From Burkholderiales bacterium (GTDB lineage Bacteria > Pseudomonadota > Gammaproteobacteria > Burkholderiales > Burkholderiaceae_C): a stretch of DNA of 64,000 nucleotides. Made by a program: the position numbers and the translations under genes. The DNA lies in NCBI GenBank assembly GCA_016191995.1, contig JACPVA010000074.1, forward strand, positions 1 through 64,000, read 5' to 3'. Positions 16,556 through 60,846 of this stretch are shown here, in pieces (position 1 is the stretch's first letter; every line of letters starts with the position of its first letter). The notes beneath the pieces were generated by a model. It was not told the DNA's origin, searched no databases, and worked only from the letters and a program-made list of their open reading frames with translations.

Positions 16556-16787
16556 TGCGGGATTGCGTCCAAGGCTTTGACTGGCGCTTGCGGTCGAACG
16601 GCCGCGGCCGTCAGTTCGCGACACTCGCGACGATCTGAAGCGGTTGTTCGTCGTGCCATCGCGCAGTGAAGACCGGCCCGGTTCGGGCGGTCGTCGACGA
16701 TGGCGTCGAGGTCGTGTGGCCGGGGGCCAGCGCGCTCAGGCACCCTCTGCCGGCCCTGTCTCTGCCACTGCGGTGCGCAGGCGAGGA

Positions 16788-17204
16788 CTATGCGACCGCA
16801 GGCTTTCTTGGCCGCCCACCCATCTTGCCGTTCTCGCGTGACGCGGCAGCCTTTGCTGGCGACTTAGCGAGTCCGCCCGATCTGCCCATGACTCCTGCCA
16901 TCCACTTCCGCGACCCGAGGGCACCCTCCAGCAACGCGGGCAGGTACAGATCGGCGTCCAGCCTGGGAAAGTGAAGACCGAGGCCGCTCGGGCTGATCTC
17001 AATGACGGCCAGGTCGCCGGGTCTTGCCTGTTCGAGGCCTTGGGCCAGATGTGGCGGAAACGCCAGTTCCAGGCCGGTCTCGAGCTGGACGACCACGCGC
17101 GCGACACGCCTGTCATAGCGCGCGGCAACCGCACGAGGTCCCGACTCGAGGCGGGACCGCATGCGCGCCTCGGCTCGCTTCAGGTCTGCATCAGTGATCG
17201 CCAT
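16788..17204 (-). CDS. DUF2442 domain-containing protein
   Basis: VVQLETGLELAFPPHLAQGLEQA...GLGLHFPRLDADLYLPALLEGALGSRKWMA; paired with DUF4160. Confidence 0.8.
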   Translation of the reverse strand: MAITDADLKRAEARMRSRLESGPRAVAARYDRRVARVVVQLETGLELAFPPHLAQGLEQARPGDLAVIEISPSGLGLHFPRLDADLYLPALLEGALGSRKWMAGVMGRSGGLAKSPAKAAASRENGKMGGRPRKPAVA

Positions 17205-17439
17205 GAATCGTTTTCCAGGAGTGGCACAACATGGCCAGTTCGGCCTGAAGATAGGCCGCAATTCGGTTGGCTTCTCGAACAGCCAGTCCCATCGACTCGC
17301 GCAGTTCGGGAGGCCCGTCGGGGCAATGCAGGTGGAATACAGCCTCGCACCCGGCCCCCACGACGTACACGTGGGCAGGGGGGTGGTCATTGGTGTACAT
17401 GACCACTCGGTAGGCCCTGTACCTCGAGACCGTTGGCAC
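17191..17439 (-). CDS. DUF4160 domain-containing protein (GTG start)
   Basis: RAYRVVMYTNDHPPAHVYVVGAGCEAVFHL...WKTIHGDH. Confidence 0.8.
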   Translation of the reverse strand: MPTVSRYRAYRVVMYTNDHPPAHVYVVGAGCEAVFHLHCPDGPPELRESMGLAVREANRIAAYLQAELAMLCHSWKTIHGDH

Positions 17440-17449
17440 GAGCTACTGT

Positions 17450-17467
17450 AACCTATTCGCTTAGGTT
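17450..17467. promoter_or_regulatory. candidate operator of DUF4160/DUF2442 module
   Basis: AACCTA-ttcgct-TAGGTT dyad 11 bp upstream of the GTG start at 17439. Confidence 0.45.
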
Positions 17468-17701
17468 TTCAATGCCCATGCGGGCCCGGCACCGTGCTGA
17501 ACGGCTCCTTGCCGATCGAACGCAAACGCGCATCAGCCCGTGGCTGTGCGCGGCCGCAGGCGCCGCGCCGCCTGCGCCGACCAGCGGCTGCCCCCATGCG
17601 GCGGCCGGCGCCCCGGCGCGCGCCACGATGACCCGCTCGCGGCGCCGCCGCGCCTGCGCCGCTATGCTCGCCGGCCATCGTCGACCCCCCGGATTCACCC
17701 C

Positions 17702-33832: not shown

Positions 33833-35447
33833 GTGGGCTCACCACTTCGGGAGCCTCGCGTGCAAGCCATCGGCTGGCAGCCCCAGCGGGCGCCGGATGG
33901 CGCCCCGGTCCATTACGAGCGCCACCGCCCGGAGCAGACCACGCTGCACCACCTGGTGCAACAGTACGCAGCCAGCTTCATCGCCCACACCGAAGCAAGC
34001 ACGGGTGCCGAGCTGCCCCGCTTCATCAAGGACGAGTTCGACGCCTTCCTCGAGTGTGGCATCCTGGCCCACGGCTTCCTTCGGCTGCGCTGCGGCGAGT
34101 GCGGCCACGACAAGCTGCTGGCCTTCAGCTGCAAGCGGCGTGGCTTCTGCCCCTCATGCGGCGCGCGGCGCATGTCGCAGACCGCGGCGCACCTCGTCGA
34201 CCACGTCATACCGCATGTGCCGGTGCGGCAGTGGGTGCTGTCGCTGCCGATCCCGCTGCGCTTGCTGCTGGCCGCGCAGCCGGAACTGGTCACGCCGGTG
34301 CTGCAGGTGGTACAGCGCGTGGTCACGCGCCATCTGCTGGGGCGGGCGGGGCTCAAGGCCGACGAAGGCCACGGCGGCGCCGTCACGCTGATCCAGCACT
34401 TCGGCTCGGCCGCCCCTCAACATACATCTTCATTGCCTGGTGCTGGACGGCGTCTACCGCTGCGACGCCGACGGCGTGCCGACCTTTGTCGAGGTGGGCA
34501 CGCCCAGCGACGACGAACTGCACGCGCTGCTGCAGACGGTCCTTACCCGGCTGATGAAGCTGCTCACGCGCCGGGGCGTGCTGATCGAGGAGATGGGGCA
34601 GACCTACCTGGCCGAGCCGGACGCCCACGGCGAAGAGTCGCGCACGCTGCGGCCGCTGCAGGCGGCGGCCATCACCTACCGCATCGCCTTCGGGCCGCGC
34701 GCCGGGCAGAAGGTGCTGACCCTGAGGGGCGCGACGCCGCGCGAGACCGCAACGCGCCAGCCTTTGTGCGCCGACATCGACGGCTTCAGTCTGCACGCCG
34801 CGGTGCGAGTCGAGGCGAACGACCGCAAGCGGCTGGAACAGCTGTGCCGCTACATCACGCGGCCGGCTCTGTCCGACGAGCGGGTTCAGCTCAACGCCGC
34901 CGGGCAGGTGGAGCTCAAGCTCAAGACGCCGTGGCGCGACGGCACCACGCACCTGGTGCTGAGGCGGGACGCAAACAGTCCGGTGGACTGTTTGCGCCAG
35001 CCGAAGGGCCCGAGCTCTGCGAGGGCGCGGCCTGCAAGGTTGAGCCCGATGGAGTTCATGCAGCGCCTGGCGGCGCTGGTGCCAAGGCCGCGGTTGCATC
35101 TCATCCGGTTCCACGGCGTGCTGGCTCCGAACGCGAAGCTGCGGCCTGTGGTGGTGCCTCAGGGACCTGAGGTACAGGAGCGGACCACCGAAGTCGCAGC
35201 TGCCAGCGAATGCGAGGTCGAGACGGTTCAGACCCGGCCGCACCGGATCAGCTGGGCGCGGCTGCTCAAGCGGGTCTTCGACATCGACATGCAGCACTGC
35301 CCGAACTGCGGCGCCGGGGAACTGAAGATCATCGCGGCCATCCTGGATAGGCCGGTGATCGAGAAGATCCTGACTCACCTGGGACTGGATCCGCAGCCGC
35401 CACCCCGGGGGCGGGCGCGCGCGGCGTGGATTGACTTCGCCACCTGA
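33833..35447 (+). pseudogene. IS91 family transposase, frameshifted near 34415 and carrying a palindromic insertion at 34964-35044
   Basis: SCKRRGFCPSCGARRMSQTAAHLVDHV and PRPRLHLIRFHGVLAPNAKLRP, HCPNCGAGELKIIAAILDRP; reading frame changes between ...LIQHFGSAA and LVLDGVYRCDADGVP. Confidence 0.9.
34964..35044. repeat. 81-bp palindromic (REP/MITE-like) insertion with possible TGAG target duplication
   Basis: CGCAAACAGTCC-GGT-GGACTGTTTGCG hairpin at 34970-34996; interrupts the otherwise contiguous HLVL|SPMEFMQRL; TGAG at 34960-34963 and 35041-35044. Confidence 0.75.
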
Positions 35448-59646: not shown

Positions 59647-60104
59647 CGAATCCGTCCTTGCCCGCGGCGACGGCGTCGCCGCACAATGCGGGCCCCGCCG
59701 AGCGAGCCGCGACGATGGAACACCTGCACCCGACCGAGGCCTACGAGCGACTGCAGGCCGAACCGAACATGCTGCTGGTCGACTGCCGCAGCGAGGTCGA
59801 GTTCTATTTCGTCGGCCACCCGGTCGACGCCGTCAACATCGAGTGGAATACGGCGCCGGACTTCGAGCTCAACCCGCACTTCGTCGACGAGGTGCTGCGC
59901 ATGGCCGGGCGCAAGGACCGCCCGATCGTCCTCATCTGCCGCAGCGGCAAGCGATCCGTCGACGCCGGCCGGGCGCTGGAGGAATCGGGCTTCACGCACG
60001 TGGCCAACGTGCTCGAGGGCTTCGAGGGCGATCTCGACAAGCAGCACCACCGCGGCACGCTCGGCGGCTGGCGCAAGCACGGGCTGCCCTGGCGGCAGGT
60101 CTGA
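59643..60104 (+). CDS. rhodanese-like domain protein
   Basis: LLVDCRSEVEFYFVGHPVDAVNI, LICRSGKRSVDAGRAL active-site loop. Confidence 0.92.
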   Translation: MTNPSLPAATASPHNAGPAERAATMEHLHPTEAYERLQAEPNMLLVDCRSEVEFYFVGHPVDAVNIEWNTAPDFELNPHFVDEVLRMAGRKDRPIVLICRSGKRSVDAGRALEESGFTHVANVLEGFEGDLDKQHHRGTLGGWRKHGLPWRQV

Positions 60105-60222
60105 TTCGGGATCGCGTTCAAACCCTCAACTTGCGCCTGCGGTCGAACGGCCGCGGACGGCACGTAGCGGACCTTCACCAGTGCCCACTGTTTGCCATGT
60201 GCGGCGTTCGACGTCCGCGCGT

Positions 60223-60390
60223 GCCAAGGCCGGCGGGCACCCTCCCACTCCATGCCCGGGGACAGTGCCCCGGGCGCTCGCCAGGCACAAACAGTCCGCA
60301 GGACTGTTTGTGTCCGGGCTCGCTCCCCCGGGCCGGGCTGCGCCCGCCCCTCCTCCTTTACTTACGTGGAGGGTGCCCGCCGACCTTGGC
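60223..60390. repeat. structured palindromic element, unit 1 (inverted partner of unit 2)
   Basis: Closing stem 60223-60245/60368-60390; hairpins 60254-60275, 60286-60312, 60334-60346. Confidence 0.85.
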
Positions 60391-60437
60391 CTGCCAGCGC
60401 CCTGGTATCCAACCGTCGAATACCAGCTCGGTGGCCT

Positions 60438-60608
60438 GCCGAGGACGGCGGGTGCCCTTGCCCGTAAGTAAAGGAGGAGCCAGCGGCCGAAGGCCGGTGG
60501 CGGGGGAGCGAGCCCGGACACAAACAGTCCAGCGGACTGTTTGTGCCTGGCGAGCGCCCGGGGCACTGTCCCCGGGCATGGAGGGCAAGGGTACCCGCCG
60601 TCCTCGGC
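60438..60608. repeat. structured palindromic element, unit 2 (inverted partner of unit 1)
   Basis: Closing stem 60438-60463/60583-60608; hairpins 60484-60496, 60519-60545, 60556-60577. Confidence 0.85.
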
Positions 60609-60846
60609 CCGCGCGATCGCTGCGAACTACGAGAAGGCAGGCACCCGATGACTGCAACGGGCTAACGGCGATCAATCGCCGCCGACCCAGTCCTTGGCGA
60701 TCGTACGCGAACGCGTATTGTCTCTGGTCTGATGCCGAGACCGCGCGGGCACGCTGGTTCCTCGCAGACCAAGAAAGGTGACCCACCGCGACCTCGTCGA
60801 CAGCCCGAAGCGAGCGGTCTGCGGCCGCAAGGCTGCCGCGCAGGGT

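Follow-up and report, generated by a model that had tools for sequence, protein, structure and literature searches.

A probable MITE-like element family with paired, strand-specific folds behind TGA stop codons in a Burkholderiales genome

Introduction

Two large palindromes stand head to head between a rhodanese-like gene and a mazG-like gene of a Burkholderiales bacterium, within the 64,000-nt stretch of DNA analysed here (the window). The question raised by this locus is what such a structure is and how it came to lie there. The first-pass annotation offered two answers, a non-autonomous mobile element moved as a folded single strand or a structured RNA. The analysis below indicates that the locus probably belongs to a non-autonomous, MITE-like element family that prefers TGA stop codons and carries a paired, strand-specific fold. 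Most mobile elements damage or avoid genes. An element that lands on a stop codon and restores it could spread through a genome without doing harm, placing one and the same structure behind many genes.

The palindromic units

A repeat search recovered both palindromic units where they had been reported, including their terminal stems, their hairpins (among them CACAAACAGTCC) and the 115-nt inverted repeat (93%) that joins them. Unit 1 (60223..60390) is closed by a 23-nt terminal stem (60223-60245/60368-60390, 96%) and unit 2 (60438..60608) by one of 26 nt (60438-60463/60583-60608, 96%), so that pairing is nearly perfect in both. Between them lies a central imperfect hairpin (60391..60437), whose TTCGACSGTCGAA core is present in other copies. 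The hairpin pattern has 3 matches in the window vs 0 expected. Both units fold at far lower energies than shuffled sequences (unit 1 as DNA, z -7.3; unit 2 as RNA, z -9.3). The more stable fold is on the minus strand for unit 1 (-123.4 vs -115.3 on the plus strand) and on the plus strand for unit 2 (-131.9 vs -123.8 on the minus strand).

The description of the units held in that both are real, but it had taken as fixed a hairpin-bearing block that is optional across copies. This 69-nt A module, with GCCCGGGG and CACAAACAGTCC hairpins, lies at 60255..60323 on the plus strand in unit 1 and at 60508..60576 on the minus strand in unit 2. It is absent from many copies, including one nearly identical to that in the window (C141), and it occurs in both, one or neither unit of a copy, always at the same position. 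The invariant part of the unit is CATGTCCCCCG-hairpin-CTCCTCCTYTACTT within the terminal stem. Near-invariant in 29 units are the conserved CTCCTCCTTTACTT of unit 1 (60350..60363, plus strand; AAGTAAAGGAGGAG on the favoured strand) and the AAGTAAAGGAGGAG of unit 2 (60466..60479, plus strand). As the first-pass annotation held, this is more elaborate than a REP: the units are 100-171 nt long, compared with the 20-40 bp palindrome of a REP or REPIN.

The whole element and its insertion

The units were correctly located, but the span first given, 60223-60608, covers only the core of a 613-bp element (60105..60717). Homology between copies extends outward past this core, up to imperfect terminal repeats, and the resulting ends are common to many copies in the same genome. 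The element begins at the base that follows the rhodanese stop and ends with the right terminal repeat. Its left terminal inverted repeat, type a (TTCGGGATCGCGTTCAAACC, 60105..60124, plus strand; consensus TACGGGATCGCGTTCAA), scores 26.2 against the end profile, and its right one, type b (TACGCGTTCGCGTACGATCG, 60698..60717, minus strand; consensus TACGCGTTTGCGTTCGATCG), scores 29.9. These repeats are about 20 bp long and follow the pattern TACSG..TYGCG.TC, also written TACSGNNTYGCG.TC; ends a and b have TACGSGWTYGCGTTCRA in common.

The upstream gene (59715..60104, plus strand) encodes a rhodanese-like protein of 129 aa, identified by Pfam (Rhodanese, 3.7e-15) and by synteny, and its TGA stop (60102..60104, plus strand) is the presumed insertion target. 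The rhodanese and mazG-like genes are adjacent in eleven members of the genus. Between the aligned ends of the two genes, eight of these have 13-77 bp and one has 129 bp; the remaining two have a longer gap filled with other sequence. In the window, the gap is 752 bp. Given that eight of the eleven relatives have only the short gap, the window segment is an insertion between the two genes.

Elements range in size from ~0.1 to 1 kb, the minimal copy being 140 bp with the same ends, and their contents vary: the units, other palindromes, or a DUF4160/DUF2442 gene pair. A second end pair in the window (16556..17532, 977 bp), matched by its ends and lying directly behind the TGA stop of a Pfam-identified cation-efflux gene, encloses DUF4160 and DUF2442 genes (Pfam) in place of the palindromes. 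This gene pair resembles a toxin-antitoxin cassette, and its flanks are TGA and an inverted TCA, with no direct repeat.

Outer ends differ among genera, and ends of the type found in this genome were not found in 80 other members of the genus. The end TGATACSGNNTTGCGNTC is present in 12 of 301 family genomes (L398-L413), several times followed by CCGTTCGGGCTGAGCTTGTCGAAG-like sequence; thus, other repeats may use the same ends.

Copies in the genome and the family

The genome searched is a 4.55-Mb draft in 199 contigs (a MAG). Unit 1 has 95 matches in it, which resolve to at least 40 loci and so establish a multicopy element. At most of these loci, two units of different stem type face each other head to head around the central hairpin. 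When a covariance model was run on 201 genomes of the family, 89 had the unit; by genus, this is 70 of 141. Most occurrences are inverted pairs with spacings of some 40-60 bp, and both orders are seen. About half of the genera sampled in this large family thus have the unit, which is undescribed as far as searched: the open-access literature yielded no described family for these elements, nothing relevant on stop-codon MITEs or Burkholderiaceae repeats, and only unrelated papers for the hairpin 11-mer.

Related hairpins also occur elsewhere. Within the window, a Y2 (IS91-type) transposase gene (ORF 34731-35300, plus strand) contains an in-frame A-type hairpin, GCAAACAGTCCGGTGGACTGTTTGC (34971-34995), apparently as an insert of ~26 residues; Pfam PF04986 matches across it. 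A similar hairpin pair was seen by eye inside another Y2 (IS91-type) transposase gene (L325), and three tandem hairpin copies with 80-nt spacing are present at L094. The exact hairpin ACAAACAGTCC-NNN-GGACTGTTTGT also occurs outside the family, in sequence contexts quite unlike the present one: in Clostridia/Oscillospiraceae and, once, in Phyllobacterium (loci including L095, L098, L099, L101, L104, L112 and L115); in Clostridia/Oscillospiraceae it is several times found beside a tRNA-like GGTTCGAAC sequence.

Covariation and the favoured strand

Sixteen units from other species, which have in common only CATGTCCCCCG, CTCCTCCTYTACTT, the hairpin position and a 22-bp stem, were aligned for an analysis of covariation. 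Compensatory changes are present at 25 of the 30 pairs, 89.5% of cells pair, and none of 500 shuffles reaches this level; slid controls collapse. The terminal stems thus covary. Mismatches in terminal stems are strongly asymmetric, with an A.C:G.T ratio of 116:19 in 81 family units and 39:5 in units of the window's own genome. An A.C mismatch in one reading is a G.U wobble on the complementary strand, and it is this complementary strand that folds more stably in 77 of the 81 units from the family and in 47 of 51 from this genome, although related copies are not independent and the strand P-values are therefore indicative. The near absence of G.U had suggested a strictly DNA-level palindrome, an idea rejected once the mismatches proved to be A.C, and hence G.U on the opposite strand. 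Since G.U is tolerated on one strand, the fold is selected on a single strand, as RNA or as single-stranded DNA, and the proposal that the structure is under selection is upheld by both the covariation and the asymmetric mismatches.

Because the units are inverted, the favoured folds lie on the minus strand for unit 1 and on the plus strand for unit 2, both read from the centre towards the ends, and each strand receives one favoured fold whichever way the element inserts. The core is built of two units in inverted orientation, and a covarying stem of its own encloses the AAGTAAAGGAGGAG-hairpin-CGGGGGACATG of each. The favoured strand may function as RNA where transcription continues beyond the end of a gene, or as single-stranded DNA that folds, and the strand-specific G.U pattern makes this distinction testable.

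Of the alternative views, the one that survives best takes the units as structured RNA in transcript 3' ends, serving stability, or CsrA or ribosome binding through GGA or SD-like tracts, with mobility only the means by which they spread. This view is compatible with a MITE-like element and is a serious possibility, if somewhat short of an even chance. It is consistent with the tolerance of G.U but not A.C on one strand, with conservation of the purine tracts AAGGAGGAG and CGGGGGA, which lie outside the helices, and with insertion directly behind stops. However, folding of single-stranded DNA accounts for the same asymmetry, no Rfam model matches above its gathering score, and consensus searches revealed neither a promoter nor an intrinsic terminator (a stem followed by a T run). 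The Rfam matches by e-value were below-threshold microRNA models and were discarded. On the favoured strand, e.g. at window 60466-60580, a conserved SD-like AAAGGAGG is followed by a hairpin and then CATG, an arrangement that by sequence resembles a ribosome binding site in which the hairpin would shorten the spacing to the ATG.

Insertion at TGA stop codons

TGA or TCA stands outside the element ends. Nine of the 15 two-ended copies in the genome (L004, L008, L200, L204, L255, L256, L260, L269 and L314) have a direct 3-bp TGA/TCA duplication, as do four of the five two-ended copies in genus G149, whose ends, TACCGACTTGCGATC/TACGGTTTTGCATTC, are similar. Taking the two genera together, 13 of 20 two-ended copies have a duplicated target. 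The copy in the window is without a clean 3-bp duplication, having TGA on the left and TTG on the right, with a TGA 12 nt further out within a repeated GGTCTGAT. Two end pairs carry inverted TGA flanks, and the ratio of direct to inverted TSA flanks (13:2, P 0.007) indicates that the TGA/TCA flank is no part of an inverted repeat. Exact ends and duplications are established in these two genera only; in the other genera, some 15-120 bp separate the stops from the units, and the ends are undefined.

These trinucleotides are nearly always the stops of long frames. In a set partly biased to TSA (the search pattern contained TSA, and the profile begins with the A of TGA), the open frame that ends at the TGA has 94 codons or more for 29 of 31 TGA-flanked ends. 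Among control TGAs, the median frame is 35 codons, and 21% reach 100 or more. Pfam confirmed upstream genes, among them those for 5-FTHF cyclo-ligase, ornithine cyclodeaminase, Fur, alanine racemase, MOSC, cation efflux, LuxR, Leu/Glu dehydrogenase and a TonB receptor; 5 of 20 upstream frames tested had no Pfam match, and an open frame alone is no proof of a gene. The element usually lands exactly behind the TGA stop codon of a gene and, with TGA duplicated behind the stop, the upstream gene keeps its stop.

An enzyme with no preference for stop codons could leave the same pattern if purifying selection removed all other insertions, as would suit a gene-dense genome in which 36 of the 46 genes called in the window end in TGA. 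Selection alone is nevertheless an unlikely explanation: 29 of 31 is more than the 54% expected even on conservative assumptions (P 2e-6), although the gene calling behind this enrichment is crude and genes were missed.

How the element may move

The proposal of a non-autonomous mobile element has gained from the analysis, both by the insertion relative to the short gap in relatives and by the many copies. No transposase was seen inside the two-ended copies read, one of which holds the DUF4160/DUF2442 pair. By eye, the 2.5-kb gap between two units at L209 was likewise rejected as a transposase site. Terminal inverted repeats with a 3-bp target duplication are the mark of double-strand cut-and-paste, and such repeats with a short, fixed duplication suggest a transposase of the DDE type supplied in trans. 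This enzyme would cut at TGA with a 3-nt stagger, an expectation taken from the TNA-targeting elements of the IS5/IS1031 type. A transposase gene with these ends was not found in the genome or its relatives, and the draft MAG may miss the gene. More tentatively, the locus may reflect a transposition system, and a previously undescribed mobile family, that recognises TGA stops, duplicates the stop so that the gene survives, and delivers an inverted pair of strand-specific domains, one in the sense strand of the gene followed.

Movement as a folded single strand by a RAYT or IS200-type (Y1) enzyme, as the first-pass annotation had envisaged, fared poorly. Here, the element would be REPIN-like and its strand bias that of a strand-specific single-stranded DNA hairpin. 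Inverted hairpin pairs and strand-specific folding do look REPIN-like, and GTAG REPs can supply stop codons and sit behind genes (PMC3733652). However, the genome has a single Y1 gene, and no clear match to the repeats lies within ~1.5 kb of this gene or of the Y1 genes in relatives, unlike a RAYT flanked by its REPs. Moreover, 19 of 37 genomes searched have no Y1 match at E 0.001, several of them carrying these repeats, and terminal repeats with target duplication are not Y1 features, so that a Y1 mechanism is quite improbable. The genome's single Y1 gene (L067) adjoins, by eye, its own repeat, GGGTCAGGTCT..AAATCGAAACCCCC, unrelated to these elements.

Least probable by far is an ordinary palindrome, made by recent inverted duplication and DNA-level conversion with no selection on a folded strand, since, although the window units are 93% complementary over 115 nt, stems within units beat pairing between units in 20 of 20 pairs from other genomes (swapping 3' arms between units of other species weakens the mean pairing energy considerably, from -53 to -33 kcal/mol), the mismatches are strand-asymmetric, and the arrangement recurs family-wide.

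Comparison with known systems

Integron attC sites are folded, strand-specific palindromes right behind a stop codon. The units share these features, but no attC core-site motif was seen by eye, and the genes beside the element in the window are native and syntenic rather than cassettes. IS1031-type elements of the IS5 family make a 3-bp TNA target duplication. The TGA duplication is alike, but no transposase was found here.

REP, BIME and REPIN sequences associated with RAYT, such as the GTAG and CGTC REPs (PMC3733652), likewise form inverted palindrome pairs behind genes, and contiguity with stop codons is reported for GTAG REPs (PMC3733652). In contrast, the present units are ~100-170 nt long with their own terminal stems, have no link to a RAYT, and are accompanied by target duplication.

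Among MITEs moved by IS transposases, the likeness is to elements such as MITEAba12, which has a target duplication in 40% of copies (PMC6382973). The family in the window differs in its 3-bp TGA duplication at stops, its nested palindromes and its covarying, strand-specific units, and in that no parent IS was found. Like MITEAba12, it has no transposase of its own, is bounded by terminal inverted repeats, shows a partial target duplication (13 of 20 copies here) and is multicopy.
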